This document shows positions 4,900-37,311 of a stretch of 62,335 nucleotides of DNA, one piece after another. Both the position numbers and the translations under genes were made by a program. Source of the DNA: a virus; the IMG/VR virus record IMGVR_UViG_3300030380_000755, positions 1-62,335 of that record; one strand, 5' to 3'. The notes below the pieces were generated by a model. That model saw only the letters and a list, made by a program, of their open reading frames with translations, ran no database searches and was not told the DNA's origin. Positions within the stretch are counted from its first letter, which is position 1. Each line of letters starts with the position of its first letter.

Positions 4900-5367
4900 G
4901 TGGCGACTGTAATAGACAGTAAACAAACACAATTAGAACCTGCGCAGATCATACTAAAATTTGCGGAGGATTATAACGATACGGGGTACCCTGTTGAGGC
5001 TGTTGCGGCGGGTGTAATAAAAGAGGTAACAATGCCCGACACCGATCTGGTGCAATTTGGTAATACCGCATTTATTGGGCATAGAGGTAAAGGTAAAAAT
5101 AAAGACCTTATGTGGGGACGTGGTTTAACTGTAGACACCGCACAAAACTTCATTGCGGCAGGACTAAAGTATTTTACTCATTTACAAAATATAGGCATAA
5201 AACGTTATACTACAGATTATAATGGTGATATATATGATAGTGCGTTTAGAACGTGGAAACGGTACGCAGATCGCGTCGATACTAAGATTGCCGTAGGACG
5301 TAAAGCTAACGGTGGTTCTAGGGCGTATGTTACTTTGGGAGAAATGCCATTGAGTGAGATAACTTAA
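4900..5367 (+). CDS. Unknown protein, possibly GNAT-fold acyltransferase-like
   Basis: 155-aa protein with a GTG start placed by a clear GGAGGT five bases upstream, just after the ketosynthase stop. I do not recognise a family with certainty. The order of predicted elements from residue about 45 onward (strand NTAFIGH, helix DTAQNFIAAGLKYFTHL, strand RYTTDY, helix DSAFRTWKRYA, then strands KIAVGRK and AYVTLGE) resembles the second half of GNAT N-acyltransferases. Similar proteins occur beside internal virion proteins in podoviruses. Given its neighbours, it could take acyl groups from ACP, or simply be an internal virion protein. Confidence 0.5.
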   Translation: MATVIDSKQTQLEPAQIILKFAEDYNDTGYPVEAVAAGVIKEVTMPDTDLVQFGNTAFIGHRGKGKNKDLMWGRGLTVDTAQNFIAAGLKYFTHLQNIGIKRYTTDYNGDIYDSAFRTWKRYADRVDTKIAVGRKANGGSRAYVTLGEMPLSEIT

Positions 5368-5368
5368 T

Positions 5369-8300
5369 ATGCCGATTGGTGAACTAATAAGCGATGTAAT
5401 CGGTGGCGCTGCAGACCTCGTAGGAGATGTTGTTGGTCTCGTTGGTGATGCGGTTGAGTGGGTTGTAGATGAAATAATAGAGCCTGTAGTGAGTGGCATT
5501 GGTGATGTTGTTGAGTATGCGCTCGACAATCCCATTGAAGCTCTTGCAACATTAGCAGTTACTGTGGCCGCGCCGTACGCCGCGCCTTTTCTTGGTACTA
5601 CAGCTACCGCATTAACGGGCGCTGCTAAATGGGTAATACCGTTGGCTAGCGGCACGCAAACCTTGGTTAACGGTGGTAGTATTAGTGATGCTGTTAAATC
5701 CGCTGCCATTAGTTTCGCGGGTACATATGCGGGTAAAATAGCTGGAACCTATATTAATCCTACAATAGAAAATATAACGTCCAAAGCCATATCTAATACA
5801 AAATTAGCAAGTACAGTGTCTAACGTGTTAGGCGCAGGTACAAAGTCCGCTACTAAAACTTTTGTACGAACTGGTGATTTAAAAGCAGCAAGCACCGCGT
5901 TTACTCAATCCGTAGCTCTTGGAGGTGTGAATGCAGGGTTAGAAGCCGCAACAGATGCGGTTATGGGTAATATTAATGATACCTTGCAGAAAACTGGATT
6001 TGGTAAAGAATTTAATGATCTTTCTTCGGGGATCAAAGATTCAATTTATACTAGTGTAGCCGCAGAAATTACAGGGCAAAACTTATCTACACAACAAATA
6101 GTAAACGCGTTAGATTCTAATGGTTTTGTTACAGACCTTATTAATAAATACGTACCTGTAGCAAGTTTTATGGATGGGTTTATAGAGGATGCTAAAGTTA
6201 GGCTAGGCAAAGATTTATCAGCTACACAGATACAACTTCTATCCGATGCAATGTCAGCAAGTTGGGAGAAAGCAAAAGAAGGAAATCCCGATTTAACAGG
6301 CGAGGCGTTCTTTGGTAGCTTGCAAGAAGACGCATACGAAGAGTTAATTGATACTATTAGTGATCCTATCGATGCAGCTTTAGACAATATTACAGGAAAT
6401 GCAGCTAGCGCAGAATTAGCTGCAGCACCACTTAATGAAGCTATTAGAAAAAGCGCTGAAGCAGCAGCTAACTTCAATGAATTGACAGGGCAACTAACCG
6501 AACGAATTGCGGAACAAGAACGATTACAAGGTGTATACGATGATGCAAGAGCGCAGCATAATGCTAACCCGTCGCAAGCAACAGCAGATGCCGTTAACAC
6601 CGCAGCGGCGGCATTCAACGATCACACAATAAATTTAAATGCAGACTACCCAAGTATCAAAGAGCAATTGGACGAATACAAAGCTCAACACGATAAATAT
6701 GAGCCTACGATAGAAGGCTTACAAGAAACGTATGACGAAGAATCTAAATATCTTATATCTGACATTGAAGATTTAGATGCTGCGCTTAAACCTATGTTAA
6801 CAGGTGTAGATCGAATAACTGCTATTGCGTTACGTCCCGGCATTGATGAAAATGGATACAGGGAAGCTATGGGGCTTGGTCCTGACGAAGATGTTTATGG
6901 ACATTACTTAGCGAATCAAAAATTAGCAGACAATATTATTGCTGCAGACATTGCAGCGGGCTACGTCAACATGGCAAATAATAACATATCTTCGGATAGT
7001 CTACCAAACATACCTAGCGAAATAACCCGTCCCACTATCTATGGTGCGCCTAAAGGGTTAACAATACCTGACAGCCCTGACGCACTAAACATAGATTTTA
7101 CTGCGCCAAAACCACCTGTAGTATATAGCGGACGTGGCGGCGATCCACGAGATTATGGATTAACAGAAGAAGAAGTAGCTGAATACATGGCAGATAATAT
7201 TGCTGCAGGTGTGTTTGACACGTTTAAAACAACCGCATCAGACCTATACAGAAATTTTACATCAGGCGGGGCAGAAGCTGGTGCTTACACTGTGGGCGGA
7301 TTTGGTACGTTTGCAGACGAAATAGCAGAAAATATGATTGATGCATTTAATGTAGACTACTCAGACGCTGAAGCTATTTTCTACAACAGTCTTGCAGTAC
7401 AATACGACCCAAATCTAACGGACGACGAAAAAGCTGAAGCACTGGCGCAAAACACTGCTGCATATCTTGCAGCAACAGAAAAAATAAAGGCGGAACAAGG
7501 TTCTACCGTTACTGTTTTTTCATCGTACACTGATCCATTAAAAAAATATATTATGGACATTAGCGATGCGGAGGAGGCCAAAATATCTCCTGAAATGCAG
7601 GTCCGCCAATACAATGCACTACCTGCACCCGATACTACTTGGGAACAAATTCTTTCAGGAAAAGCTAAAGACCGTCTTGGGCGTCCCTATGGGTTTGGTG
7701 ATCCTCTTGCAACGGTGATGTCTGGAGTACAAGAACTTCCCGACCTTGCGGTTGATATGGCGCTACTTGCTATAACTAAAAACCCTGCAATATTAGGTGG
7801 TACCGTAGCGGTAACGAGTATGGCAGAGGCGGGAGACGCCGCAGCGGATGAGATTGAAGAAGCGCTTACCAATGCGCGTGCGTCAGGGGAGCTACAAAAA
7901 ACACAAGAGTTTGCCGATTTAGTACGAGTATTTGATGGAGATGAAGACGCTGCGTTTGAAAGACTAGTAGACCAAAGTATGGGGTATGCTGCCACAACAG
8001 GTGTTATTGGTGGTATTGGGGACGTTGTTTTAGGTAAGATTGCAGGCGCTAGTGGTGGATCTAAATTACTATCTACAGTTCCTGTTGGTCTACAGACGGT
8101 AGTTAAAACAGGTACAGGCGGTGTTTCTGGGGGTATTAACGAAGCTGTAGAACAAGTACCTATAAACATGGCGCAGATTGATGCTGGGTTAGATGTTGAC
8201 ATTGATTCAGGTACTGGCGCAGCGTTTTTAGTCGGTTTATCAAGCGAGGGCACTGCAACTGCAGGGGCGGCGTCTCTCACAGCTATTACTGACACAGTAA

Positions 8301-11119
8301 ACAAAATTAAAAACGGTACGTATTCGTACACAATGCCTGACGGCACCACTGTGTCACCGGAACCGCCTAGCGGGGACCAAACACCACTTATAAATACTGT
8401 ATCAGACAACCTAGCTCTGTTTGAATTATACACCAACCTACTAAATGATCTTAGCAGTTGGGGGGCTATACCGTCTGATTCTACACAATTTGATGCGCCG
8501 CAGCTAATTAGCACGCTAGAAAACTTGGGTATTGAAGATACTACGTTTATACAAAATGCAGCCAATACTGCGTATGGCGATCAAGTTATAACAAAATATG
8601 AGGTAGACACGGCTCTAGGTAATGTGCAGCCAGACTTTAAACTAGATGACAATGCGTATGCCGTTCTTACTGGTGCAATCCCCAATGCTGATGCCGCTGC
8701 CATCGTTGCAGCGTATATTGACCCACTCTACATTGACGCGGATGAAGTTAAAGAAGCCGCTGCAGAAGAAGGCATAGAACTTACCGATGAGCAAATTGAT
8801 GCAATCGTAGGGCAGAAAGATGAAGCCGAGGCAGTGAAAGAAATTGATGAGTTAGGTACATCAGAGGCAGAAGCACGTAAATTTTTTACTGATCTTGGTT
8901 ACGAACCCACCGACGAAGAAGTACAGCAGTATGTAGGCTCTGTGTCTGAATCAGATCAGCAGACAGCTATTGGTAACTATGTTGACCCACGGCAGGTAAC
9001 CGAAGCAGAAGCGCGTAAATTCTTTGAAGATCAAGGTTATACACCAACAGACGAAGAAATTGTAAACTTTATAGGACAGGGCAACGTAAATTTTGAAACT
9101 AATACAAGCGAACGTGTTCCTACATACATAGACCCACGCCAAGTTACAGAAGCAGAAGCTCGTAAGTTTTTTGAGGATCAAGGGTACGACCCTACAGACG
9201 AAGAAGTTGCTAATTATGCTGGGCAAGGTAATGCTGATTTTGAGGCTACTGCACCTGACCGCGTAGGAAGTTATGTAGACCCACGACAGGTCACGGATGA
9301 AGAAGCGCGTGAGTTTTTTACAAATCTTGGGTATGACCCGACAGATGAGCAGGTTGCACAGTTTGTTGCACAGGTTGAAGAGACCACACAGTCTGGACTT
9401 ATTGCGTCTTATGTAGACCCACGACAGGTTACCCGTGAAGAAGTGCAGGCTATTGCCGATGAAGAAGGGCTTACCTTAACTGATGCTCTAGCAGCCACAT
9501 ATGTAGGTCAAGGTGTAGCGGAGAATTATGCGTCCGAGAAACTATCGGAAGCACGTGCAGAATACGATCCGTTAGCAACCACACTGGAAGAAGCTACACA
9601 ATTTTTTGCAGACACAGGGTACACTGCAACGACAGAAGAAATTGCGCAGTTTGTTGCTTCTAAAACGGAAGAAACACAGACAAGTGCTATCGGTAGTTAC
9701 GTTGACCCACGACAAATAACCGCAACAGAAGCGGAAGAATTTCTAAGTGCTATCGGGTATCAACCATCACAGGAAGATATTGCAGCGTTTACTGGACAGG
9801 TAAATGACGAAAACTATCAGACTACACAAAAAGCCGCCATTGATGAATTCGTTGATCCGAGGTTTTTTGACGCTGGTGAGGTTCGCGCAGCTTACGAAGA
9901 ATTGGGTCTTGTAAATGTAACACAAGAAGATGTGGATAAGTTTGTTGGGCAGTTTGATCCTGAATCTGAAGACTATGACGCCACAGGTTTTGAAGCATTT
10001 CAACGCGGAGAGTTGGAAACGTACGCACCAACAGCTACAAACAACATTATTGCGGCTGTTATAGGGACGCCTGCAGTTGAAGATGATCCAAATACGCCCG
10101 AAGATGAATCTAAAGATGCTACAGGCATATATGCTGAGTTTGAAGCAGGTAAAGACAGAGACGAAGCTTTAGATGCCGCAATAAATAAAGTAGCTGAAGA
10201 TTTAGGCACTACAAAAACTGATTTATTAGATGAACTTGGACTTACAGAAGACCGTCTTAACGAAGAAATTGACGCTGTAGTTGAAGATGTTGCAGGCTTA
10301 ACCGAAGAAATTGGTGACGTAGAAACACGCCTAACTGGATTAATTGAAAAGAACGACGGTGATGTTGACGCTGCACTTGAAGAATTATCTACCGCGCTTG
10401 GTACTACAGAAACAAACATACTCACAGAACTTGGTATTACTAAAGGCGAACTAACTGAAAGTTTTAAAACCGCTATAGGTGACGTAGAAACTAGCCTTGG
10501 TGCAGATATAGACGCAGTAGCGGACCTTGTTGGTAAACCTGCACGAGAGGTTACACAGGAAGATATAGATTTTGTAATTGATTTAATTGCACAAGAAAAT
10601 GTCAGCGAAGAACTAATCATGCAATATGATGTTACTGGAGACGGTATCATTGACATAGGTGACCAAGCTCTGTTAGAAACAGCATTACAGGGTGAAGAAG
10701 ATGTTACTCTTGCAGATACGTCCATGTTTGCGCCAGACACAGGTATATACGGCGAAATAGACACACAGACGGACGCAATCACTGATATGATTACTGATCT
10801 GAACACTCAGATTACTACGCAACAGCAACAGGAAAATTTACGGGACTTACTATCAATGGAGCAACAGGGCTTATTTAAAGGGGCAAAAACCACAGTTTCT
10901 GCTGCAGACCCTGCAAATATTGATTATCTATATGATTTTAACAGCATATTTGCTAATCCGTCACAACAAGGACTGTTTGCAAGCCCATATAGCACTACAA
11001 CTCGTAACAAAACGGCAAACCAACCCATGGCACCAATGCCTATGGCTAGCGGGTTTGCAAAGGGTGGACAGGTTGAGGATGAAAATGATATGCTACTAAG
11101 AATACTTGGAGGTATGTAA
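5369..11119 (+). CDS. Giant internal virion/ejection-type protein with tandem repeats
   Basis: 1916-aa protein. The first 100 residues are Gly/Ala/Val-rich and amphipathic (VIGGAADLVGDVVGLVG, then LATLAVTVAAPYAAPFLG), suited to membrane interaction. Coiled-coil-like helices follow at about 350-470. Residues about 1115-1530 hold nine degenerate repeats of 45-50 aa built on YVDPRQVTEAEARKFF and GYxPTDEEVxxFxGQ. An ETRL-type helical stretch follows. At about 1753-1772 there is a calcium-loop motif DVTGDGIIDIGDQALL. The C-terminus ends in SGFAKGGQ and LLRILGGM, a tail seen in other proteins of this phage. No tape-measure features were seen. A role as a protein ejected into the host is inferred from size, acidity and place in the operon. 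Confidence 0.65.
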   Translation: MPIGELISDVIGGAADLVGDVVGLVGDAVEWVVDEIIEPVVSGIGDVVEYALDNPIEALATLAVTVAAPYAAPFLGTTATALTGAAKWVIPLASGTQTLVNGGSISDAVKSAAISFAGTYAGKIAGTYINPTIENITSKAISNTKLASTVSNVLGAGTKSATKTFVRTGDLKAASTAFTQSVALGGVNAGLEAATDAVMGNINDTLQKTGFGKEFNDLSSGIKDSIYTSVAAEITGQNLSTQQIVNALDSNGFVTDLINKYVPVASFMDGFIEDAKVRLGKDLSATQIQLLSDAMSASWEKAKEGNPDLTGEAFFGSLQEDAYEELIDTISDPIDAALDNITGNAASAELAAAPLNEAIRKSAEAAANFNELTGQLTERIAEQERLQGVYDDARAQHNANPSQATADAVNTAAAAFNDHTINLNADYPSIKEQLDEYKAQHDKYEPTIEGLQETYDEESKYLISDIEDLDAALKPMLTGVDRITAIALRPGIDENGYREAMGLGPDEDVYGHYLANQKLADNIIAADIAAGYVNMANNNISSDSLPNIPSEITRPTIYGAPKGLTIPDSPDALNIDFTAPKPPVVYSGRGGDPRDYGLTEEEVAEYMADNIAAGVFDTFKTTASDLYRNFTSGGAEAGAYTVGGFGTFADEIAENMIDAFNVDYSDAEAIFYNSLAVQYDPNLTDDEKAEALAQNTAAYLAATEKIKAEQGSTVTVFSSYTDPLKKYIMDISDAEEAKISPEMQVRQYNALPAPDTTWEQILSGKAKDRLGRPYGFGDPLATVMSGVQELPDLAVDMALLAITKNPAILGGTVAVTSMAEAGDAAADEIEEALTNARASGELQKTQEFADLVRVFDGDEDAAFERLVDQSMGYAATTGVIGGIGDVVLGKIAGASGGSKLLSTVPVGLQTVVKTGTGGVSGGINEAVEQVPINMAQIDAGLDVDIDSGTGAAFLVGLSSEGTATAGAASLTAITDTVNKIKNGTYSYTMPDGTTVSPEPPSGDQTPLINTVSDNLALFELYTNLLNDLSSWGAIPSDSTQFDAPQLISTLENLGIEDTTFIQNAANTAYGDQVITKYEVDTALGNVQPDFKLDDNAYAVLTGAIPNADAAAIVAAYIDPLYIDADEVKEAAAEEGIELTDEQIDAIVGQKDEAEAVKEIDELGTSEAEARKFFTDLGYEPTDEEVQQYVGSVSESDQQTAIGNYVDPRQVTEAEARKFFEDQGYTPTDEEIVNFIGQGNVNFETNTSERVPTYIDPRQVTEAEARKFFEDQGYDPTDEEVANYAGQGNADFEATAPDRVGSYVDPRQVTDEEAREFFTNLGYDPTDEQVAQFVAQVEETTQSGLIASYVDPRQVTREEVQAIADEEGLTLTDALAATYVGQGVAENYASEKLSEARAEYDPLATTLEEATQFFADTGYTATTEEIAQFVASKTEETQTSAIGSYVDPRQITATEAEEFLSAIGYQPSQEDIAAFTGQVNDENYQTTQKAAIDEFVDPRFFDAGEVRAAYEELGLVNVTQEDVDKFVGQFDPESEDYDATGFEAFQRGELETYAPTATNNIIAAVIGTPAVEDDPNTPEDESKDATGIYAEFEAGKDRDEALDAAINKVAEDLGTTKTDLLDELGLTEDRLNEEIDAVVEDVAGLTEEIGDVETRLTGLIEKNDGDVDAALEELSTALGTTETNILTELGITKGELTESFKTAIGDVETSLGADIDAVADLVGKPAREVTQEDIDFVIDLIAQENVSEELIMQYDVTGDGIIDIGDQALLETALQGEEDVTLADTSMFAPDTGIYGEIDTQTDAITDMITDLNTQITTQQQQENLRDLLSMEQQGLFKGAKTTVSAADPANIDYLYDFNSIFANPSQQGLFASPYSTTTRNKTANQPMAPMPMASGFAKGGQVEDENDMLLRILGGM
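8713..9960 (+). repeat. Coding tandem repeats (YVDPRQVT / GYxPTDEE units)
   Basis: Nine imperfect repeats of about 135-150 bases inside the 1916-aa gene. Each encodes a VDPRQ-type turn, an acidic helix with EARKFFxxxGY, then PTDEE and a hydrophobic QFVxQ end. The two units around 8986-9240 share long stretches of protein identity but differ at many third codon positions. This shows old duplications kept by selection on the protein rather than recent slippage. Confidence 0.85.
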
Positions 11120-11814
11120 TGAGTATCATTGAAGATGGACTTGATGCACTAGGTAATCTTTTTAAAAAGAAAGACGGTAGTGTCGATTACGGTTCGCTAA
11201 TATCTCTAGGTGGCGCTGTTCTGGGCGGTACTGGAGTATTGGGTACTGACACTCCTATAACAGGATACCAAGGCACGGTACCAGAATATGATGTGCAACG
11301 TGAAGTTGTGCCCGGTACATATGATCCTAACAGAAGACCCGGAAGTGGTGGACAACGCTATTTTACACAAACGCAATATGTCCCTAAAAGTGCTACGCCT
11401 ACGCAACCTATGTCTGCCGAAGGTTTAGCGGCGTTGAATGCAGCAAATCCTGCACGACAAGAACGTAGAAGACCCGGCGGTCCACGTATACCAGAGCTAA
11501 CAGAAGAAACCGTAGAAGAAACTACAGAATTAGCCACAGGTGGTATCGCTACACTGAAAAAAGGTAAGTACCTAAACGGCGCTACCGATGGTATGGCAGA
11601 CAAGGTACCCGCAAACATTGATGGTGTGCAAGAAGCGCGACTAAGCGATGGTGAATTTGTTATTCCCGCTGATGTCGTAAGTCATTTAGGCAACGGTAAC
11701 TCTGATGCGGGCGCAAAAGTATTAAAAGATATGATGGCTAGGGTGCGTAAAGCACGAACTGGCAATACGAAACAGGGTAAAGAAATAAACCCTAATAAAT
11801 TTATACCCGCGTAG
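11119..11814 (+). CDS. Structural protein with conserved DGMADKVPANIDG / GEFVIPADVVSHLG domain
   Basis: 231-aa protein coupled to the previous gene by TAATG. The N-terminal 40 residues are Gly-rich and hydrophobic, the middle is a low-complexity Pro/Arg/Gln linker, and the last about 90 residues form a domain I know from many marine phage structural proteins: GGIATLKKGKYLNG, DGMADKVPANIDG, ARLSDGEFVIPADVVSHLGN, then a basic helix and a KFIPA end. Its function is unknown. It lies between giant virion proteins and probably serves in the same assembly. Confidence 0.65.
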   Translation: MSIIEDGLDALGNLFKKKDGSVDYGSLISLGGAVLGGTGVLGTDTPITGYQGTVPEYDVQREVVPGTYDPNRRPGSGGQRYFTQTQYVPKSATPTQPMSAEGLAALNAANPARQERRRPGGPRIPELTEETVEETTELATGGIATLKKGKYLNGATDGMADKVPANIDGVQEARLSDGEFVIPADVVSHLGNGNSDAGAKVLKDMMARVRKARTGNTKQGKEINPNKFIPA

Positions 11815-11824
11815 GAGGTAAAGC

Positions 11825-12703
11825 ATGGTTACTCCCGTACTTACAGGCACTGAAGACCCAATTGTAACAGGTAAAGAGTCTGGTCTGGCATCATATGCAG
11901 GTGATTATGTCACCGACATGCTCGGTAAAGGGCAAGCGTTGGGTAATGAAGCATATAACGCTTATATGGGACCGCTTACAGCGGGTGCATCAGACTTACA
12001 AACTAAAGCCTTTGAAGGCGTTGCAGGGTTAGCAAATGCGTTTGATCCCAGTCAGATGGGTACAGCAGGGTACCAACCACAACAATTTACGGGCGATGCT
12101 GTTCAACAGTATATGAATCCATACCTACAAGCCTCATTAGAACCACAACTAGAAGAAGCACGGCGGCAAGCAGGGATTACGGCTGCACAAAACGCTCGTA
12201 AGTTTGCAGGAGCCTACGGTGGATCAGCACAAGCGTTGTTTGACGCAGAATCAAACCGTAACTTAGCGCAGCAGCTACAAGGTATAACAGGTGCGGGCTA
12301 TGCAGACGCGTACACTCAAGCACTTAATCAATTTAACACAGAGCAAGATCGTGGGATGACCGCGCAAGACAAGATTAACTTGTACGGTACGCAAGGACTA
12401 CAAAACCTAGCGAATATGGGCGCAACGGAACGAGCTATAGAATCTGAAGGTATCACAGCCGACAGACTACAATTTGAAGAAGAACGTGACTTCCCGTACA
12501 AGCAAGTACAGTACATGCAGTCTCTACTACAAGGACTGCCGATTGGTGCACAAACGGTACAATACGAAGAACCGGGACTTCTACAATCTATGGCAACAGG
12601 CGCTAGTGACCTCGAAGGGTTTATCGAAAGCCTGTTTGGTACTGGTGGCGGTACTGGCGGTGGCGGTGGTCAGGATAATAACCCGAACAAAGAGGGGAGC
12701 TAA
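11825..12703 (+). CDS. Putative internal virion or ejection protein
   Basis: 292-aa protein after an AGGAGG site. It is Ala/Gln/Gly-rich and mainly helical: PYLQASLEPQLEEARRQ at about residue 98, then AQNARKFAGAYGGSAQALF, and ends in a glycine-only linker (GTGGGTGGGGGQD). The sequence type (MNPYLQ.., QLEEARRQAG) is frequent beside internal virion proteins in marine podoviruses. It is not recognised as an enzyme. It is separated from the next gene by two bases (TAATAATG). Confidence 0.55.
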   Translation: MVTPVLTGTEDPIVTGKESGLASYAGDYVTDMLGKGQALGNEAYNAYMGPLTAGASDLQTKAFEGVAGLANAFDPSQMGTAGYQPQQFTGDAVQQYMNPYLQASLEPQLEEARRQAGITAAQNARKFAGAYGGSAQALFDAESNRNLAQQLQGITGAGYADAYTQALNQFNTEQDRGMTAQDKINLYGTQGLQNLANMGATERAIESEGITADRLQFEEERDFPYKQVQYMQSLLQGLPIGAQTVQYEEPGLLQSMATGASDLEGFIESLFGTGGGTGGGGGQDNNPNKEGS

Positions 12704-12705
12704 TA

Positions 12706-14979
12706 ATGGCTTTAGAATCTGGCGGGCTTGACGCACAAGTAGAACAACGCATGGACGCCTACCGAGGCAATCCACAGAAGCTGCAACAACGGTATGGGCA
12801 GAACAAAGAACTTCTGGACTTATTGGCGTTGCAAAAACTTACGTCTGAAAAGAAGCAGGTCGCTGCAGATATGCAGTTAAAGGCACAGCAGAACCCTAAC
12901 ACCATAGCGCAGCAACGCGAACAAGAAGCCTTAGAGCTAACAAAACAGGAAATGAGTGGTACGCTTGGAGAGCTAGCGGGGCGTACAAAAGGCACGTTAG
13001 ACCAGAAACAAAAGACGCAGCAGCAAAATATGCAGCGTATGGCAAAAGCACAACCCCGTAAACCTGCAGGTATTGCTGGACTTCCGGGCCTTGCAGGTAT
13101 GCAACCCCAACCACGACGTGCTCCTATGCAACCCCAACCACGACGTGCTCCTCCTCTCCCACAAGCACAGGGTTTAGCAGGTGCACGTATGGCACAAGCA
13201 GCGCAGCAGCCGGGAGGTCCACGTAGAATGGCAGGCGGCGGCATTGTATCTTTTGCTGGAGGTGAAGAAGTTACCTCACCATTTCGTCGTGCATTTGACG
13301 CATTAGTAAACCGTGTCGGTGAAGACATGGCTTTGCAGCAGTTACGTCAACAGGTTAAAACTAAGTATGGTCTTTTTGCTTCTCCTGTTGGAGGGCTACG
13401 TGCACAATCAGATGACCAACGTGCGTATGCGAAAAAAGTGTTAGACGTGGCTGACTCACTCGGTGAAGCAGAGCTACTAGAACTAGCAGATGTAGACTTT
13501 AAAGCAGCCATGAGCGCAGCGGAAGTAGACGCACTGCCTGCACTGCCAATGTCTAGCACTTCTGAACAACAAATACCCGAAGACAACCTTCCTACTACTC
13601 TCAATCAAACAGAATCACTAGACTCTACTACTGAGCAAGCTGAAGACGAAATCACAGGTAACGTAACATTTACGCCTATAGAGCAGCAAGATTTTTTTGA
13701 AGACGTAGAAACATCATACGAACCTACAAAACCAGAAGAAGCAGATAAAACTGCATTAACAGAATCTATAGACAAAATGACCGCACAAGCGGGTGAAGTA
13801 CCTACTATGGACACTGTAACGGACCTAGAAGCTGCACCATTAGAGTTTGTAGAAGCTCCTTATGACGCACAGGGAAAAGAAATATTACGCAGCCTAACTC
13901 AACGTTACGCTGACGACATGAGCGCTGATCCGTTGGCAGCAATGCAGGCTGCAGGTGTAAGTTCTGACGCTTACTTTGACCGTTCAGGAAAAGCTAAAAT
14001 ATATGAACAGCAAGAAGCAGACGAACGTGCGTTGCAAGCGGAAACACTAGACCCTGACAGACTTAAAAAACTAGCTCGTATGCAAACGCTAGCAGGGGGT
14101 CGTCGCGGTGCAGGTGGTATTGGGCAGGCGTATGTAGACGCACAGCTAGGACAAGACAAACGTAGAGGTGAAGGTCTTAGCGCGTTGCGAGATATACAAG
14201 ACACAGGAGTTACTACTGATTACAATATTGCTTCGCAGGGGGCGGCTTCAAGAGAAAACGCAGCGTCTCGTGCAGAGGCACGCAGAACAGCGGGTATCGC
14301 TGGGGCACGGGGCTTACTTACCGACCAAGAAAACCGCGCACTGCAGGGGCAACGTGAACAAAACGAAATCAACATGCTAAACCAACAGTATGAGCAGGAT
14401 GTAGCTAAAGGTGACTTTAACGCTGCAAGAGAAGCCTTACAACGTCAGGGGCTTGCGTTGCGTGAAATTGTTGGTGTGAACGCAGATGATGTTAATAACC
14501 AAGTTAAGATAAACATCTCTGTATCTGAAGATGAAAACAAATCGCGTGAAGCTGCAGTGGAGCGAGCGTTAGAGAAAGCTACAGAACGCTCAAAAGCATT
14601 TCACGATCGTATTGACTCTCTAAGTGACGACAAGAACGAACTACTTAAAATGCGTGATGAACGGGCTAAAATTGTGTATGACGCTATAACTACACAAATG
14701 ACGGCAAACCCCCTTGTTATGCAGCTAAACAACGAGCTACAAAAACTATCCAAAGCAGAAAATCCTGTGAAATATAGAGAAATAGAAACACAACTTAACG
14801 CGTTAAGAAAAACGATAACTGAAGAACTAGTGCTAACGTACCGCGTATTTGCAGATGCTTATGGTAGCATGCACGAATTAAATATGCGAATTCAAGAACT
14901 TGATGCTTTGACTGGTACAGGTGGTTTTGCTTCACGGCTAGACCCAACCACTACTCCAATAGAAACAATTGAACCATAA
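12706..14979 (+). CDS. Large helical internal virion-type protein
   Basis: 757-aa protein rich in Gln, Ala, Arg and Glu. Residues 1-110 are helical, 110-180 is a Pro/Arg/Gln low-complexity stretch that includes a 27-bp exact tandem duplication (two copies of MQPQPRRAP). Around residue 175 comes RMAGGGIVSFAGG, a motif type shared with other structural proteins of the genome. The centre is acidic and the C-terminal 300 residues are long coiled-coil helices (EERAKIVYD, QLNNELQKLSKAE). It has no catalytic motif. It probably belongs to the set of proteins packed inside the head with its two giant neighbours. Confidence 0.6.
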   Translation: MALESGGLDAQVEQRMDAYRGNPQKLQQRYGQNKELLDLLALQKLTSEKKQVAADMQLKAQQNPNTIAQQREQEALELTKQEMSGTLGELAGRTKGTLDQKQKTQQQNMQRMAKAQPRKPAGIAGLPGLAGMQPQPRRAPMQPQPRRAPPLPQAQGLAGARMAQAAQQPGGPRRMAGGGIVSFAGGEEVTSPFRRAFDALVNRVGEDMALQQLRQQVKTKYGLFASPVGGLRAQSDDQRAYAKKVLDVADSLGEAELLELADVDFKAAMSAAEVDALPALPMSSTSEQQIPEDNLPTTLNQTESLDSTTEQAEDEITGNVTFTPIEQQDFFEDVETSYEPTKPEEADKTALTESIDKMTAQAGEVPTMDTVTDLEAAPLEFVEAPYDAQGKEILRSLTQRYADDMSADPLAAMQAAGVSSDAYFDRSGKAKIYEQQEADERALQAETLDPDRLKKLARMQTLAGGRRGAGGIGQAYVDAQLGQDKRRGEGLSALRDIQDTGVTTDYNIASQGAASRENAASRAEARRTAGIAGARGLLTDQENRALQGQREQNEINMLNQQYEQDVAKGDFNAAREALQRQGLALREIVGVNADDVNNQVKINISVSEDENKSREAAVERALEKATERSKAFHDRIDSLSDDKNELLKMRDERAKIVYDAITTQMTANPLVMQLNNELQKLSKAENPVKYREIETQLNALRKTITEELVLTYRVFADAYGSMHELNMRIQELDALTGTGGFASRLDPTTTPIETIEP
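13099..13152 (+). repeat. 27-bp exact tandem duplication in coding sequence
   Basis: Two adjacent identical 27-base units encode MQPQPRRAP twice. The perfect DNA identity, unlike the diverged repeats elsewhere in the genome, indicates recent slippage. It sits in a linker where length change is likely tolerated. Confidence 0.85.
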
Positions 14980-14988
14980 GGTCATAAA

Positions 14989-17900
14989 ATGGCAATATAC
15001 GAGCTAACTGACCCAAACGGCAACAAAATACGAGTAGAAGGACCATCAGGCGCTACTAGAGAACAGATTGTAGGAATCTACAACAATACTATGGCCGAAC
15101 GGGAGCGAGAGCCAGAACGTAGGTTACGTGCAGGGTTGGAAAACTACTACGGCACACAACGAGACATCGCAGGGCAGATAGCGCGTAGCAGAAAACCTAC
15201 GTTTGGTGACTACCTTGGTGAAATCCCTAAAGGTCTTATCGGCGGTGCCGCAGGACTAGTAGAGACAGGTGCTTTGGGTCTTGCAGCGTTACTTCCCGAA
15301 GACGCAGAGAATGTTGTACGTGACGGCATCAAGAAAGCAGGTCAAGCGGTACAAGATTATGTGCCACCAGACTTCAACTTAGAAGATAGTATACCACGTA
15401 AAGTAAGTGAAGCAGGCGGTTCGTTTGCGGGTATCATAGGTGCGTCACTTATAAACCCTGTTGCAGGCGCTACATTGGCTGTATCTGCAGGGGCGGGAGA
15501 AGCTAGTGAACGTGCGCGAGCCGCAGGCGCTACCCAAGAAGAACGTAATCTAGCCGCACTAAAGGGTATTCTTCCCGGTGCGCTAGAGCTTATTCCTGCA
15601 ACTCGTCTGGTTAAAGGTATTAAACAAGTATACCGAGGTGAGGCTAACCCTGTTCAACTTGTAAAGAATCGTATCCTACGAGCAAGCCGTGAAGGTGGTA
15701 TAGAAGCCGCGCAAGAAACTGCGTCTAGCATTGCGCAAAACATGATAGAGCAAGGATATAACCCCGAGCAGGGTACATTTGAAGGTAGCGGAGAATCCGC
15801 AGGTATAGGCTTTACAGTTGGTGCGCTAGCACAATCATTGCTTGACCTTGCCACACCTAGAACCCGTGGCGGTACATCAGATGTTACAGACGTAGAACCA
15901 GAAGAATTTATCCAAGAAGAACTGGACCTACAAGGTGGAGAAGATGCGCCTACTCGTTTGGGGCTACAAACTAATTTTGAAGGTGAACAAGGTGAATTGT
16001 TCCCGCGTTCTGATTTGGGACAAGCTCCAGAAAGACCCGCAGAACGTGATCCTAGACAGACAGAGTTTGATTTTGATGAACGTGTAGAAGAAACCAGAGA
16101 GCCTGATCTTGTAGATCGTATGCAGCAAAAGTTGCTAACAGGTCCAGAAGACCTTGGGTTGACCGTGGATTCTAAGGGAGAAGCACGAACACGAGACCAA
16201 AAGACTGCCGCCCGTGCCGAGGGTATGCAGGTAGTAGAACAAGCTAGATCAGAGATACGGAACACAGGTGAAATATCCTCTGATACCATGCAGAAGCTGC
16301 GTACCGCAGATGTCCCATTTGAAGCTGTATCTAGCGTACTTAAGGGTACACGGTATGAGCCTGCGCTAGACCGTATAGAAGGTGCCGAAGCTCCTGCAGG
16401 TATTGCGGCGTTAGACACTGGGCCACGTCCTGTACAAGATCAAGCTAGCTTTGACGCTGCAGTAGCACGAGCACGTGCAGGGGGTTTAGGACAATTAACA
16501 GCAGACATTGCACAAAACGAACAAGCAGCGCAAGAACGTGCGAGAGAGCGCCAAGCACTAGCAGCCGCAGAACGTGGGGACATAGAAGCTTTTGAACAGC
16601 CCGATCTGTTTGCGATAGAACGTGAGCAAGATGAACGTAAGTATGGTAGACCAGAGCCTACACCAGAAGCTGCGCAAGTAGAAGAAGTAGAGCAGGCTAG
16701 AACCGATCCAGATTTATTAAGTCTAATAGAACAAGATAAGGCGCGAGAAGACAGCGCACGAGTACGCAAGGCTACGGAAGTTGAACGACAGAAACAGGAA
16801 GATATTGATGTAGACACTGAACTTGGTCTGAGGGATATGCAGGAACGAGTTACCGAACCCAAACGTAGGCAAGAAGATCGGGAACGTTCCGAGCAGCTAT
16901 CGTTTCGCGGTGAGTTGCGACAACCCAAAGCAACTTCTAAAGGTATAACACCCCTTGTAAAACCTGCGGTCACATCCGCAAATGTAGGAGAACTAAAAGG
17001 AGCCGCCGATGCTAGATCAACTGACGCAGCAGCAAGTGGAGTTGGCATTCCGCCTATTAAATCAAGCAGTGCAGACGGACCCGCCGAAGCCCCTGAAAGT
17101 ACCTCCGACACTACGACATCTGACAAACGCGGAATGGGACGCTCTGTGCGAGGCGCTAGGAGAACTACTGTATCAGAAGGTACGCAGTCAGATACACTAG
17201 ACGTATTTGACGAACCGATTAATGAAGATGCCGCATTAAAAGAAGCGATAGATGACCCCAAACCTGTGCAGGTAGACCTGCCAAAACAACGTGCCCGGAA
17301 ACGTACTAAGGTAAAGTCCAAGTCAAAACGTGTTACACAGAAGGCTAAAGCTGATACCGGGCCGGGTAGACGTAATGTTATAGGTGGTAAAGCCACCCCC
17401 GCAGGAGCAAAACGCGGCCCTATACCTGAAGGTATAAAAGGCGTCAAACGCCCTAAACCCAAAAAACCAGAAGCAAAACAAGTTGCGCAACTGTACACAG
17501 AAGAAACTCCTGCAGTGGTAAAAGAAGCATTTGGCGGTAAACAAGACGTAGCTACTACAAACCCATTCTCTGATGCAGACAACAAAAAGATAAAAGACAA
17601 ACTACTAGCAGGGTTTAGCAAAAGCGACAAAAGCAAAAAAGAAGTTGCTCCCATTGTTGCCTATTTGCGTGCTTATCCAAACCCATTTGATGGGCTAAAA
17701 TTAGCAATATTTGATTTGGTTCATAGCACCCCATTAGCTACTAACGAAAAAACAAATGACCCCTCTGCACAAGCAGCCGCACAAGCTAGACAGTATATGG
17801 GCGGAGTACCTGCTAAAAAGGGGCAGTTAGCACCTGCGCTACGAGCTATTGCATGGGCCAGAGCTAATCTAAGCAAAGAGGCAAACTTACGTTTAGATCG

Positions 17901-20900
17901 TGCATTTAAAGAGATACAGCTAAACCAAGTACGCACAGTGTTGTTTGAAAGTGGTTCTGACAGAGTTATGGACGCTAGAGAAAAACGCTTGTTTGAAAAC
18001 CGTAAGAGTTTAGAAGCCGCAGTGCTCGGAGGGTACGCAAACGAAAAAGACTTGCTAGACGCATACCCTGACATATACCCAAATATGTTCGCAGTGCGTG
18101 AAGCTATGAATGACCCTGCATTTGGACGTATGGCATTAGAATTAGGTGCCGTAGTTGGGTTAGACATACCCATGCACCCAATGGTAATTGACGCTATAAA
18201 ACAGGGGAATTTACGCGATGCGCTATCTAATGTAGCAAGCACCAATGGTTCACAACAAGTGCGTCAGATAGCTGCCAAGTTCGCCAACGTAGCAGGTGAC
18301 ACAAAACTTGTTACAGTGAAAAACTTGAAAGCTGAAGACGGACGTGCAGTCGCAGGATTATTTGATCCTAAAACGAACACAATCTCGTTAGACGCAGATA
18401 CTGGTATCAACACGCACACGTTGATCCACGAAATGTCTCATGCAGGTATGTCAGCATCGTTGGCTGATCCTAAGAATGGTTTTGGTATTCAACTTAAAAA
18501 GCTGTTCAAAGACTTAGATGGTCTGCTAGGCACGGCCTACGGCTCAAAAGACCCTGATGAATTTTTAGCTGAAGCGATGGGCAATCAAGAGTTTAGATCA
18601 GAACTTGCGAGCATAAACCCAAAAGGCGAACCTGTCAGTGCACTACAGAGGTTCTTCAATATTGCTAATAACTACCTAAGTAAAATCTTACCGTTTGTTA
18701 AGTCACGTAACCTGACCGCGCTGCAAGAAGTAGACGCGCTTGTGGATGCGTTGTTAGCCCCTGCACCTGTATATCGTTATGCTAATCAAATGGCGATGAT
18801 GACCACGGCAGACGGTGTTAAGAAATTTACGCAAGACGTAGTTGATGCCACACAGAAGACTATAAACAAAGGGAGCCGCGAACAGTTTAAGTTCAGTGTG
18901 CGAGACTTCTTTACTCAAGGGTTCTCAAAAAAATCTAAGAACCTGCTGCTTAGACTTACTGGTCTACAAGGGTTGGGCGACATTGCAGAATCTGTTGGTT
19001 TGGGCAAAATGGGTCACAAGCTAGACGAGTTGGTAGCTAGTCAACGTGGGGAAATTCAGACTGCAAACAAACTCATAGAACGAAAAATTGGAGAAATTTT
19101 AACAAAGCTAAATAAAGGCACCACTGAGCAAGCACAAAAACGCAAAGAAGCCTTGGACCGTTTGATCTACGATAACGACTACGGCGCTACTATTTATCAG
19201 GTAGACCCAACGAAACCACAGGGTACATACATTAATAAAGATGGTAGCCCCCGTATGGACAACGATGGCAATGATCTGTTGGAAGTATGGAACAAGCAAC
19301 GTGCTGATTGGAAAGCATTAGGACCAGAGGGACAAGCTGTATTCAACGAAATGCGTGCAGTGTACAAAGATCAATATGAGAAGTTACGCGCTGTTGTTAT
19401 GAGGCAGATAGACGAGCTAGTACAAAATCCTGACGATGCCAAAAAACTAAAGCGCGACATCTTTGCTAAACTATTTGATGCAAGTACCCTAGATGTATAT
19501 TTCCCGTTGATGCGTGAAGGTGACTACGTGCTACGCTATGAGGTTAAGAACCCTAAGTCATCACGCGAAGCCACCGTGGTACAGACATTTACCACAGACG
19601 CAGAACGTCAAGATGCAGCTAAAATGTTTAGGGCAAACAAAGACTACAAAAATGTAGAAATTGTAGAAGAGGTATCAGCAAGAACATTTAAAGGCACAGG
19701 AGTAGACCCAAGTTTCGCATACGATGCGCTGAGTATTCTGGACAAAAACAAAGTTCCACAAGATGTGAAAGATCAAATAATCAAGTTGTTTATAAACTCC
19801 CTACCTGAGACATCGTTTGCTAAGTCATTGCAGAAACGTAAAGGTACCCCGGGGTACATGCAGGACTCTGTGTATGCTCTTAAGACAAAGGGTTATAGCC
19901 TTGCAAGTCAGACAGCTAAACTAAAATATGGGGCACTTTTACGTCAGTATGAAGCTGACTTAGACGCGTTTGAACAAGTTGCGCTACCTAAAGCCAAAAG
20001 TCTTGTAGGAAAAGGTACGGAACGGCTTACCGCCGCGTTTAATGATGTAAAAGCTGAACTGAAAGATCGTGCGCAGTTTGCGCGAAAAGGCGCGGACAAT
20101 AAAAACATAGAAGCGGTAGCACGTAGACTTAACCAAACCGCGTTTATCTACACTATCGGTTTCAACGCATCGTCTGCTTTGGTCAACCTATCGCAAATCC
20201 CCTTGTTTGTTGCACCGTTCTTGGGGGGAAAACACGGGTACGTAAAAACGTACGCCGCGATCAAGTCTGCATATGGTAATACGTTATTAGGTGGTAAACG
20301 TGGGGGTGGCACAAACTCTATCCTAGACTTCTATGATATATCTGACAAAGGTACATTTACCCTGAAGAAAGGTTTAAAATTACCTGAAGGAAAAGAGGCT
20401 GAACTGAAACGCATGGAAGCCTTGGTGCAAACTGCATCACAACGTGGTCTATTAGGTCAAGGATTTCTCGCAGAAGCCATGGGGCTTAATGAGACTAGCC
20501 GCATCAAAAAAGGTAGTAAGATAGGCAACGCTGTAGACAACGCATCGGTGCTATCCGCTTGGTTGTTTAACCATGCAGAACAGTTGAACCGTCAAGTAAC
20601 CTTGATGGCATCATTTAACCTAGCATTAGATAGTGTAACGAAGGGTAAGGCTAATAAGGCAAGCGAAGCGCAGATAGAAGAAGCTGTAAAACAAGCTATA
20701 TACGACACACAGCAGACAAACGGTGGCACGTTCTTGGAAACCGCACCTAGTATTGCACGAGAAGGTATAGGTCGCGTTGCGTTTATGTACAAAAACTACG
20801 GCCTGCAGATGTATTACACTATGCTAAAGACCGCTAAGACCGCTATGGACAGCGACAAAGGTAAATTGTTTGGAGCAGAAGGATCGCCCGAACGCAAGGC

Positions 20901-21744
20901 CGCAGTAAAACAACTTATAGGTATGCACGGATCAGCGTTGTTCTTTGCAGGTATTCAAGGCTTGCCGTTGTACGGCGCGGTAAAACTTATCGCTAACTTG
21001 TTCTTCTTAGATGACGAAGAAGAAGATTTTGATACAATCGTACGTCAATATACAGGTGAAGGTTGGTACAAAGGCGCAATAACTGAGTTTGCAGGGTTGG
21101 ATGTGGCAAGTCGTATGGCACTTACTGGGCTTCTTATTCAAGAAAACCGCTACAATAGCAATCCATCCCTAGAAGAAACACTAGGTTTCTATGCGGGTGG
21201 CCCTGCACTGAGCGTAGCTAATCGTATAATGCGAGGAAGTAATGACTTGCTGTCGGGAGAAACGCAGCGTGGCATAGAAAGTATACTACCTGCAGGATTA
21301 AGTAATGTATACAAATCAACATTTGGTAGGTACGCACAACAAGGTGGGATTTATACTAGGCGCAATGATCCTATATACGACGATCTTACTAATGGTGATC
21401 TTGTGGCTTTAACTTTGGGAATAAGACCTACCGAGTATTCGTTCCGCACTGAAACGAGTGGGGTATTAAAAAACATAGATATTGCCGTAAACAAAAAACG
21501 TTCTTTCTTAAACAAACAATATTATGTTGCTATGAGTATGGGTGACTACGAAAAGATGATGGATGTGTACGATGACATGATTAAGTTCAATGAGCGTCAT
21601 CCAGAAGCGGCCATAACACCTGATTCTATAGAGCGTTCTATGAAGCGACACGCTGAAACGACAAAAAATATGCACTATGGTAGATCGTTTAGCAGCACGT
21701 ACGGTGCAACAATTAAAGATATACGAGACGCCTTTAAACAATAA
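14989..21744 (+). CDS. Giant polyvalent virion protein with HExxH metallopeptidase motif
   Basis: 2251-aa protein, the last gene of the rightward arm. The N-terminus (TDPNGNKIRVEGPSGATREQ) is a short beta element common on such proteins, followed by a Gly/Ala membrane-active region (about 75-190). Residues about 600-850 are low-complexity charged linker. At 1147-1151 lies HEMSH in a typical zincin helix, with Glu1191 or Glu1195 in DEFLAEAMG as a plausible third ligand. The C-terminal third resembles domains of phage large polyvalent proteins (RVAFMYKNYGLQMYYTMLKT, then an acidic DDEEEDF loop). Ejection into the cell, with peptidase action on the wall or on host protein, is inferred. A second gene is nested in another frame at 17009-17200. 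Confidence 0.7.
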   Translation: MAIYELTDPNGNKIRVEGPSGATREQIVGIYNNTMAEREREPERRLRAGLENYYGTQRDIAGQIARSRKPTFGDYLGEIPKGLIGGAAGLVETGALGLAALLPEDAENVVRDGIKKAGQAVQDYVPPDFNLEDSIPRKVSEAGGSFAGIIGASLINPVAGATLAVSAGAGEASERARAAGATQEERNLAALKGILPGALELIPATRLVKGIKQVYRGEANPVQLVKNRILRASREGGIEAAQETASSIAQNMIEQGYNPEQGTFEGSGESAGIGFTVGALAQSLLDLATPRTRGGTSDVTDVEPEEFIQEELDLQGGEDAPTRLGLQTNFEGEQGELFPRSDLGQAPERPAERDPRQTEFDFDERVEETREPDLVDRMQQKLLTGPEDLGLTVDSKGEARTRDQKTAARAEGMQVVEQARSEIRNTGEISSDTMQKLRTADVPFEAVSSVLKGTRYEPALDRIEGAEAPAGIAALDTGPRPVQDQASFDAAVARARAGGLGQLTADIAQNEQAAQERARERQALAAAERGDIEAFEQPDLFAIEREQDERKYGRPEPTPEAAQVEEVEQARTDPDLLSLIEQDKAREDSARVRKATEVERQKQEDIDVDTELGLRDMQERVTEPKRRQEDRERSEQLSFRGELRQPKATSKGITPLVKPAVTSANVGELKGAADARSTDAAASGVGIPPIKSSSADGPAEAPESTSDTTTSDKRGMGRSVRGARRTTVSEGTQSDTLDVFDEPINEDAALKEAIDDPKPVQVDLPKQRARKRTKVKSKSKRVTQKAKADTGPGRRNVIGGKATPAGAKRGPIPEGIKGVKRPKPKKPEAKQVAQLYTEETPAVVKEAFGGKQDVATTNPFSDADNKKIKDKLLAGFSKSDKSKKEVAPIVAYLRAYPNPFDGLKLAIFDLVHSTPLATNEKTNDPSAQAAAQARQYMGGVPAKKGQLAPALRAIAWARANLSKEANLRLDRAFKEIQLNQVRTVLFESGSDRVMDAREKRLFENRKSLEAAVLGGYANEKDLLDAYPDIYPNMFAVREAMNDPAFGRMALELGAVVGLDIPMHPMVIDAIKQGNLRDALSNVASTNGSQQVRQIAAKFANVAGDTKLVTVKNLKAEDGRAVAGLFDPKTNTISLDADTGINTHTLIHEMSHAGMSASLADPKNGFGIQLKKLFKDLDGLLGTAYGSKDPDEFLAEAMGNQEFRSELASINPKGEPVSALQRFFNIANNYLSKILPFVKSRNLTALQEVDALVDALLAPAPVYRYANQMAMMTTADGVKKFTQDVVDATQKTINKGSREQFKFSVRDFFTQGFSKKSKNLLLRLTGLQGLGDIAESVGLGKMGHKLDELVASQRGEIQTANKLIERKIGEILTKLNKGTTEQAQKRKEALDRLIYDNDYGATIYQVDPTKPQGTYINKDGSPRMDNDGNDLLEVWNKQRADWKALGPEGQAVFNEMRAVYKDQYEKLRAVVMRQIDELVQNPDDAKKLKRDIFAKLFDASTLDVYFPLMREGDYVLRYEVKNPKSSREATVVQTFTTDAERQDAAKMFRANKDYKNVEIVEEVSARTFKGTGVDPSFAYDALSILDKNKVPQDVKDQIIKLFINSLPETSFAKSLQKRKGTPGYMQDSVYALKTKGYSLASQTAKLKYGALLRQYEADLDAFEQVALPKAKSLVGKGTERLTAAFNDVKAELKDRAQFARKGADNKNIEAVARRLNQTAFIYTIGFNASSALVNLSQIPLFVAPFLGGKHGYVKTYAAIKSAYGNTLLGGKRGGGTNSILDFYDISDKGTFTLKKGLKLPEGKEAELKRMEALVQTASQRGLLGQGFLAEAMGLNETSRIKKGSKIGNAVDNASVLSAWLFNHAEQLNRQVTLMASFNLALDSVTKGKANKASEAQIEEAVKQAIYDTQQTNGGTFLETAPSIAREGIGRVAFMYKNYGLQMYYTMLKTAKTAMDSDKGKLFGAEGSPERKAAVKQLIGMHGSALFFAGIQGLPLYGAVKLIANLFFLDDEEEDFDTIVRQYTGEGWYKGAITEFAGLDVASRMALTGLLIQENRYNSNPSLEETLGFYAGGPALSVANRIMRGSNDLLSGETQRGIESILPAGLSNVYKSTFGRYAQQGGIYTRRNDPIYDDLTNGDLVALTLGIRPTEYSFRTETSGVLKNIDIAVNKKRSFLNKQYYVAMSMGDYEKMMDVYDDMIKFNERHPEAAITPDSIERSMKRHAETTKNMHYGRSFSSTYGATIKDIRDAFKQ
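17009..17200 (+). CDS. Nested (overprinted) small gene inside the giant virion gene
   Basis: 63-aa protein read in the +1 shifted frame of the 2251-aa gene. The ATG is preceded by AAAAGGAG with a six-base gap, one of the best ribosome binding sites in the genome. The product is compact and protein-like: MLDQLTQQQVELAFRLLNQA, a Pro/Lys turn, LTNAEWDALCEALGELL and a terminal SQIH. I associate this LTxxEWxxLxxLL pattern with short conserved proteins of marine phages. In the host gene's frame the same DNA encodes a Ser/Thr/Ala/Gly-rich linker with no visible structure, which is what overprinting would leave. Function is unknown. Confidence 0.65.
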   Translation: MLDQLTQQQVELAFRLLNQAVQTDPPKPLKVPPTLRHLTNAEWDALCEALGELLYQKVRSQIH

Positions 21745-35616: not shown

Positions 35617-35894
35617 TGCATACGTCCCCCTTGGTTCTGCACACACCGCTTCAAGAACGCGGCGGCTTCTTCCTCGGCTTCACGTACGACAGTATCTTCG
35701 TGCGCATCTGCAAGCATATCAGAGCCATGGTCACGCATGAAATCATCAAACATACCCATGATACCTACGAGTATAGACGCCCTTATGTGGACAGGCTGCT
35801 CCATGAAATCTTCCATGAACTCCATACCGATAGACACATCTGTATCGTCAATGTCAGCGTGTATCTCTAGTACCTTCATCTTCTTAGCCATCAT
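35613..35894 (-). CDS. Small acidic helical protein, unknown
   Basis: 93-aa Met/Asp/Glu-rich protein (IHADIDDTDVSIGMEFMEDF, later DMLADAHEDTVVREAEEEAA). GGAGG precedes two adjacent ATG codons. The 3' end overlaps the zinc-ribbon gene and the 5' end overlaps the VWA gene, so it belongs to the same transcript. No family recognised. Confidence 0.6.
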   Translation of the reverse strand: MMAKKMKVLEIHADIDDTDVSIGMEFMEDFMEQPVHIRASILVGIMGMFDDFMRDHGSDMLADAHEDTVVREAEEEAAAFLKRCVQNQGGRMH

Positions 35895-37078
35895 AAATCC
35901 TCCGACTGTACATGCACCGTCACACCGTGATCGGGCTTGGCATTCTTGTTATCCACGATCACCCACAACACAGGATGATCCCACGTACCCCAACCACCGT
36001 AGAGGTAGCCATCTGTAAACACGATAGACGCTTGTGGTTTTATGTTATGCTCGCGCAAATATGCAGGGACACAACGTACATCTGTGCCGCCCCCACCTAC
36101 AGGGTTAGTCTTGGCCGCTACGGTATACAGTTCGTCGTTGGTATACTTCTCGTACCCACAGACTTCTGTGTCCCAATAGCTTACGTGTAACTCGTCAGGC
36201 TTGACTGCTTCACAGATACCAACCAATTCACTAATCATTATCTGCTGTTCACGCTTACCGATGGAACCAGACATGTCGTTGTGTTCTGCGATACACTCAA
36301 CTTGTTCTGAGATGCCGCTTGGCATGTAGATACCTGCCGACACGTATTTACGATTTGGTTTATTCCATGTTGAGTAGTCGCTACCTGCACAGGTTGTTTG
36401 TACAAATTCACGCAACGCTTCACGCCAATCAACCTTGGGCTTCAACAATTCTTCCATGTCACGGTTGCCACCACTGCCCATCTTACCTGCAACAAGTGAA
36501 CCTTGGCGTATGGCCTCGTCCACCTCGCGTTGTATCTCACGTTGCTCGTCGGGCGTCATGTCTTGTGCACCTTCCCAATCGTGATCGTCGAACCCTTGGG
36601 GATGATTGCCACGGCCACCGCCGCCACCGCCATCTTCTTCGTTGTATATATCCCAGAAGATTTTAGCCGTACCCCAACCCTTGTATTTGGGATTATGGCA
36701 TCCACCCTTGGGCATCTTGACCCAACCATCTTCGCTGTACTCCTCAATGATCTTACCATTGATATCGTAGTCCATTGCGATGTTGGCGGTGTGCGGACAT
36801 ATCTTCCACAAGTGTGCCCACGTTACCAAGTGACGATACATCTTGTGGAACACCTCGTGTATCACGACGAACCGTAACTCTGCATCGTTATGTGCAGATA
36901 CAAACGCCCTACCGTAAAACTCGTCACGTCCGTTGGTACAGGCTGTTGGCACCTTGTCATCAATCGTACGTTCACCGATCATTAGCAACCCTGATATCTC
37001 GGGGATACGCGGCATGATATCAACGACTGCTTTGGATAGCCGTTGTTCTTCCGTTAGTTGTTTACCTATTGTCAACAT
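35891..37078 (-). CDS. VWA-domain protein with N-terminal HExxH metallopeptidase-like region (DUF2201 type)
   Basis: 395-aa partner of the MoxR-type ATPase. Residues about 70-110 contain VVIHEVFHKMYRH, a zincin-like HExxH, and AMDYDING, as in DUF2201 proteins. A glycine and acid-rich linker (DGGGGGGRGNHPQG) follows. The C-terminal half is a von Willebrand A-like domain whose metal site is complete: DMSGS, GGGGTD and FTDGY. ATG 37078 is chosen because GGAGG lies upstream and it overlaps the previous stop (TAATG). MoxR-VWA pairs act as chaperone-like or metal-inserting machines in bacteria; the phage target is unknown. Confidence 0.85.
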   Translation of the reverse strand: MLTIGKQLTEEQRLSKAVVDIMPRIPEISGLLMIGERTIDDKVPTACTNGRDEFYGRAFVSAHNDAELRFVVIHEVFHKMYRHLVTWAHLWKICPHTANIAMDYDINGKIIEEYSEDGWVKMPKGGCHNPKYKGWGTAKIFWDIYNEEDGGGGGGRGNHPQGFDDHDWEGAQDMTPDEQREIQREVDEAIRQGSLVAGKMGSGGNRDMEELLKPKVDWREALREFVQTTCAGSDYSTWNKPNRKYVSAGIYMPSGISEQVECIAEHNDMSGSIGKREQQIMISELVGICEAVKPDELHVSYWDTEVCGYEKYTNDELYTVAAKTNPVGGGGTDVRCVPAYLREHNIKPQASIVFTDGYLYGGWGTWDHPVLWVIVDNKNAKPDHGVTVHVQSEDL

Positions 37079-37299
37079 TATTCTTTCCTCCATACACGTG
37101 TGTCACGTGTCATTAGATCAATTGTTTTCATTGCAATTTTTATTTTTACTGCTCTAGCCGCTGCGTATGTATTTCCTCGTAGAGAATCTGGAATTACGAA
37201 ACTGTCCCCGACCTCCATCTTTTCAAGCGTTAAGCGTAACTCGCCTTTCTTATCTGCACCCCGTTCTGGGATTGGGATATTTTTTTCTATTTCAAACAT
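37078..37299 (-). CDS. Conserved small phage protein (MEVGDSFVIP / RVWRKE type)
   Basis: 73-aa protein with the pattern KMEVGDSFVIPDS, then RGNTYAAARAVKIKI and terminal RVWRKE. This is a very common unnamed protein of marine phages, often near VWA/MoxR or replication genes. GGAGAAAA lies directly after palindrome copy 4 and before the ATG. It is coupled to the VWA gene. Function unknown; size and basicity suggest a DNA-binding regulator. Confidence 0.7.
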   Translation of the reverse strand: MFEIEKNIPIPERGADKKGELRLTLEKMEVGDSFVIPDSLRGNTYAAARAVKIKIAMKTIDLMTRDTRVWRKE

Positions 37300-37311
37300 T
37301 ATCTTTTCTCC

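Follow-up and report, generated by a model that had tools for sequence, protein, structure and literature searches.

A 63-codon gene nested in the +1 frame of a giant virion protein gene, and unrelated nested families in related phages

The nested gene and its host gene

The window, the entire 62,335-base stretch of viral DNA that was analysed, encodes terminase, portal, capsid, DNA polymerase A, an SNF2 helicase and DUF927, as well as a giant virion gene that wholly contains a second open reading frame (ORF) on the same strand, shifted by one base. The features of this locus are listed below.

4900 to 21744, plus strand: run of six genes (155, 1916, 231, 292, 757 and 2251 aa) without cysteine
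14989 to 21744, plus strand: host gene, a 2251-aa cysteine-free polyvalent virion protein (LPD39; DarB-like PHROG)
16995 to 17002, plus strand: Shine-Dalgarno (SD) sequence AAAAGGAG of the nested gene, duplex energy -7.9, its strength kept in relatives
17008 to 17200, plus strand: host-frame linker over the nested gene, rich in A/G/T/P/S and poorly conserved
17009 to 17200, plus strand: nested gene, 63 aa, in the +1 frame of the host gene and open in 41 unique relatives
18427 to 18441, plus strand: HEMSH (HExxH) zincin metallopeptidase motif of the host protein
19144 to 19425, plus strand: LPD39 domain match (PF18858) in the host protein, E 6.4e-9, above the gathering score

The host gene matches the DarB-like PHROG 10089 (E 9.5e-43), and its C-terminal part shares 20-28% identity with giant DarB-like or PLxRFG genes of cultured phages. 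It combines an LPD domain and a metallopeptidase motif with giant size and a place in the virion module, as do the polyvalent and DarB-like giant virion proteins (Iyer et al., 2017; PMC5512222). Nested genes go unmentioned in the text of that article that was searched. Presence in the virion is known for such a giant protein of a relative only, gp69 of phage JC1 (PMC9144972).

The six cysteine-free genes amount to about 5,600 residues, while most other genes of the window contain cysteine; giant homologues in cultured phages have 0-1 cysteine per 1,900-5,000 residues. This run is probably an ejection-protein module, and the absence of cysteine is possibly a signature of ejected virion proteins. 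Elsewhere in the window, genes for an AAA ATPase (phrog_1297) and a DUF2201 metallopeptidase/VWA-like protein adjoin at 35891-38421 on the minus strand, a MoxR-VWA-like pair.

The product of the nested ORF (63 codons) is MLDQLTQQQVELAFRLLNQAVQTDPPKPLKVPPTLRHLTNAEWDALCEALGELLYQKVRSQIH. Its codons begin one base after those of the host, and its stop codon ends at 17200. The initial annotation placed a strong SD six bases before an out-of-frame ATG, and this arrangement holds, with the spacer CCGCCG separating AAAAGGAG from the ATG at 17009. The SD belongs to the best 0.5% of the 202 +1-frame starts in the host gene. Across relatives, the median SD energy is -8.0 kcal/mol at the best nested starts versus -2.4 at other +1-frame starts of the same genes, and energies of -6 kcal/mol or lower occur at 85% and 8% of these starts, respectively, a gap that is partly a selection effect because each nested value was taken from the most favourable among one to five candidate starts. 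The letters of the SD vary by lineage and its strength is maintained; judged from the sequences, the nested gene has its own translation start signal. The host frame across the overlap, described in the same annotation as a low-complexity linker, has that character when pooled over relatives (77% disorder-promoting and 12% hydrophobic residues). In the window by itself, 14% of synonymous re-draws that hold the host protein fixed leave the +1 frame free of stops, and without relatives the case for a nested gene would be only suggestive to moderate.

Conservation of the nested frame in relatives

Relatives were gathered with the nested protein as query and, in a manner unbiased towards the nested gene, with the last 946 aa of the host protein. 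A hidden Markov model search over all stop-to-stop frames of the collected viral contigs returned 59 matches representing 41 unique DNA sequences, some contigs being present twice under separate locus ids, with identities reaching down to about 31%. All 59 matches lie in the +1 frame inside a long host ORF, and these hosts are homologues of the same giant gene; no stand-alone copy of the family occurs among the collected viral contigs. Searches with the nested protein (tblastn) gave one weak match in phage records and none in plasmid records, and a profile search of genome contigs found no relative. The nested frame is open in all 41 unique relatives, for which re-draws give a mean open probability of 0.09 and 2.2 expected stops each. 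Stop codons in the nested frame and loss of the ribosome binding site, either of which would speak against an overlapping gene, were looked for in these relatives: none has such a stop, and 35 of the 41 have an SD of -6 kcal/mol or better.

Among the loci found through the host protein that reach the slot, the others ending at contig ends before it, 23 of 26 carry the nested gene. The remaining three (L053, L055 and L057) form one clade. Its position among gene-bearing sequences on a tree built from the C-terminal part of the host protein suggests that the nested gene was lost in this clade, a reading tempered by the long deep branches and the arbitrary root of that tree.

The distribution of substitutions identifies the frame under selection. 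Over nine pairs, with every locus used at most once, identity averages 78% in the nested frame versus 53% in the host frame of the same DNA. Differences at the first, second and third host codon positions number 203/101/60 in the overlap versus 3929/2935/8012 outside it (chi-square 218, p about 4e-48). Third positions of host codons coincide with second positions of nested codons and undergo 0.11 changes per codon in the overlap versus 0.42 outside, about fourfold fewer; substitutions in the overlap follow the nested reading frame and concentrate at its wobble positions. Under a null model in which both host proteins were kept and codons were re-drawn from the same gene pair, nested identity exceeded the highest of 1000 simulations in 29 of 29 pairs, some of which share sequences (P < 0.001 each). 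The nested protein is thus under purifying selection beyond the constraint imposed by the host frame.

The same pattern is visible along individual alignments. For example, among L006-L008 and L022-L025, host identity is high on both flanks (56-98%) and dips exactly across the nested gene, and between the window and L004 host identity is low throughout while the nested protein is still about 83% identical. The host C-terminal part can even be swapped (about 30% identity) with the nested protein remaining 84% identical. The nested stretch is a conserved island while host flanks diverge or recombine.

Together, the 78% versus 53% identity and the codon-position pattern argue that the nested ORF is almost certainly a real gene and that its frame is the dominant coding frame of the stretch, under stronger selection than the host protein there. 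The earlier proposal of a genuine overlapping gene on a disordered linker is borne out by the open frame, the retained SD and the selection on the nested-frame protein. The locus exemplifies an overlap where selection is aimed mainly at the small hidden frame instead of the large one.

Unrelated nested families in cultured relatives

When the giant genes of cultured, Bcep22-like relatives were scanned for +1-nested ORFs, two further families, HWKEF and MYQVP, were found mid-gene in the corresponding giant genes. HWKEF (about 105 aa, beginning MNLNNW) occurs in POI1126, Atu_ph08, PEp14, Pavtok, Stean, SopranoGao, VvAW1 and Mwe-JY07. MYQVP (about 120-130 aa) occurs in Parlo, Skulduggery, ZX1, 45A6, D274 and 1.232.O, its frame in the last four being deduced from coordinates. 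Representative unannotated positions are the following.

L063 5853-6158; L071 5673-5987; L069 5337-5651; L066 6585-6908; L093 8995-9321: HWKEF, +1-nested genes
L065 8205-8591; L062 8742-9128; L100 7001-7378: MYQVP, +1-nested genes

PBC5 apart, the feature tables examined contain no coding sequence of their own for these nested genes. Both families resemble the 63-aa gene in their +1 frame, SD, mid-gene slot and selection on the nested frame, with higher identity in the nested than in the host frame and comparatively few host third-position changes. They differ from it in having no detectable sequence relation to it and, for HWKEF, in also occurring stand-alone. Homology among the three families was ruled out by profile comparison (hhalign probability for the 63-aa family of 0.1% with HWKEF and 2.3% with MYQVP).

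PEp14, SopranoGao and Parlo have in common the host-frame motif LDDMVxQFDxEV and an SD just 5' of the slot, and in Parlo HWKEF is replaced by MYQVP at this same slot. HWKEF is followed by a methylase-like stretch in PEp14 and SopranoGao, and MYQVP by a helicase-like stretch in Parlo and Skulduggery, the domain names being assigned by eye. Of five phages compared, four show a nested family whose type tracks the domain that follows; the fifth could not be resolved. It is an evenly balanced proposition that giant polyvalent virion genes of podoviruses have a recurrent slot at a domain junction, where unrelated +1 small genes, each serving the giant protein or the neighbouring domain, are swapped as cassettes that annotation has overlooked.

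Among HWKEF loci in viral and bacterial contigs, 85 are nested, two are partial at a contig end and six are stand-alone, the stand-alone class following a rule of our own; some of these six may be decayed prophages. No HWKEF gene was found in plasmids. HWKEF homologues lie near type I restriction-modification genes in three bacterial contigs (L115 5974-6762, L118 5899-6321 and L122 5998-6228), where Pfam confirms HsdM in L115 and a specificity subunit in L118, the other neighbours being read by eye. In PBC5 (L068 1-5894), unlike its relatives, HWKEF is in frame with an annotated 2180-aa gene, possibly owing to a frameshift in the sequence. In Itty13 (L095 3899-15157), large minus-strand ORFs are annotated where a giant plus-strand gene with a nested gene is expected, which is probably an annotation problem; the giant frame was not resolved.

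Small genes embedded in others are already known in phages. Rz1, within the spanin gene Rz, lies on the same strand in a different frame and has its own start. This embedding is stated for JC1, a Bcep22-like phage (PMC9144972). The 63-aa gene shares all of these properties with Rz1; it lies, however, inside a virion gene, whereas Rz1 is a lipoprotein that works with Rz in lysis. By eye, the 63-aa product lacks a lipoprotein signal (an N-terminal hydrophobic stretch and a lipobox cysteine), its only cysteine being C47. Internal +1 overlaps of overprinted viral genes, in which one partner is disordered, have been reviewed (PMC8227390). The 63-aa gene shares the internal +1 overlap and the disordered partner, but in this case the small frame is the better ordered and more strongly conserved of the two, leaving the host frame passive.

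In the open-licence literature searched, genes nested within DarB-like genes are not described; an earlier mention may exist outside it, for instance in the original Bcep22/BcepIL02 genome paper. Gene callers that bar nested ORFs would miss all three families. Their recognition brings three unannotated gene families to a group of phages with cultured, tractable members, in which function can be tested directly.

Possible role and origin of the nested gene

AlphaFold2 models the nested protein as two helices (residues 7-22 and 40-62) with a mean pLDDT of 78 and a pTM of 0.54. The view that the product looks folded gains from the two helices, while confidence of this order is not strong support for it. 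E11, A13, P32, L35, L38 and W43 are invariant in the family alignment, and the most diverse alignment has no stretch conserved enough for pattern scans. Sequence searches of PHROGs, Pfam, NCBIfam and the PDB gave no meaningful match, and Foldseek searches of the PDB and BFVD with the model gave a best E above 2. The presence of C47 beside cysteine-free, presumably ejected neighbours is a weak hint that the protein works in the producing cell.

In the mechanism proposed here, ribosomes would start internally on the giant-gene mRNA at the strong SD and ATG, and translation in the +1 frame would end after 63 codons. The cost to the host protein would be that the linker joining its N-terminal module to the downstream metallopeptidase/LPD39 part is free and disordered. 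The small two-helix product probably assists the giant virion protein as an accessory partner inside the producing cell, for instance as a chaperone, a loading factor or a guard that restrains the protease or other enzymatic parts before packaging. This role is suggested by the constancy of the slot and by the way unrelated small genes replace one another at such a position in related phages. A genuine nested gene whose small helical protein is accessory to the giant virion protein is the reading taken as probable, if modestly so. An HExxH motif follows the slot in every one of the 40 host ORFs that extend far enough, and HWKEF or MYQVP occupies the same slot in relatives. Against it, no fold or sequence match names a function and model confidence is moderate. 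Tight co-evolution with the host C-terminal part is disfavoured, since that part swaps while the nested protein stays 84% identical. The clade without the nested gene keeps its HExxH, so the metallopeptidase does not strictly need the nested gene; the idea of this enzyme as the sole partner is weakened accordingly.

The main alternative is a real nested gene of unrelated function, such as host takeover or anti-defence, that lodged where linker space was free. The evidence that the gene is real applies to it equally, host flanks recombine independently around the gene, and the unrelated HWKEF occurs stand-alone in bacteria, in three cases near restriction-modification genes. The 63-aa family, however, was never found outside this host gene, and unrelated nested families in a comparable slot point to a slot- or host-linked role; this alternative is possible, though on the unlikely side. 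It is far less probable that the act of translating the nested ORF matters instead of its product, with ribosomes slowed or gated for domain-by-domain folding. The domain-junction slot and strong internal SD would suit such gating, but there would then be no need for the amino-acid sequence to be conserved and for changes to sit at wobble positions of the nested frame.

Programmed +1 frameshifting that fuses the N-terminal part of the host protein to the nested frame is more improbable still. The nested frame is open for tens of codons upstream in some relatives (L010 and L014), but for just 4 codons upstream of the ATG in the window, and in six sequences (L001-L004, L048 and L049) an in-frame stop lies directly 5' of the ATG. 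Because of these abutting stops and the strongly retained SD, internal initiation is the economical reading of how the nested ORF would be translated. A chance ORF on a linker, or a constraint on DNA or RNA instead of protein, could explain the open frame of a single genome and is refuted by the simulations and the codon-position signal, leaving it a negligible prospect.

Whether the nested gene was overprinted on the host gene or displaced into it can be approached through codon usage. Correlation of relative synonymous codon usage (RSCU) with the rest of the host gene is -0.18 for the nested frame, 0.16 for the host frame in the overlap and 0.88 for the flanks, with a bootstrap difference of 0.20 to 0.45 between the host frame in the overlap and the nested frame. 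A lower correlation than that of the partner frame is the usual sign of a new frame, and codon usage leans towards the nested frame being the newer, overprinted one. The overlap distorts the codon usage of both frames, however, since the host frame there lies far below the flanks. By analogy, HWKEF leans towards a displaced gene bridged by the host frame. A slot with interchangeable nested genes is a good system for the origin of overlapping genes, by a new frame on an old gene or by the bridging of an old gene, and HWKEF illustrates that a small gene with stand-alone relatives can occupy such a slot.
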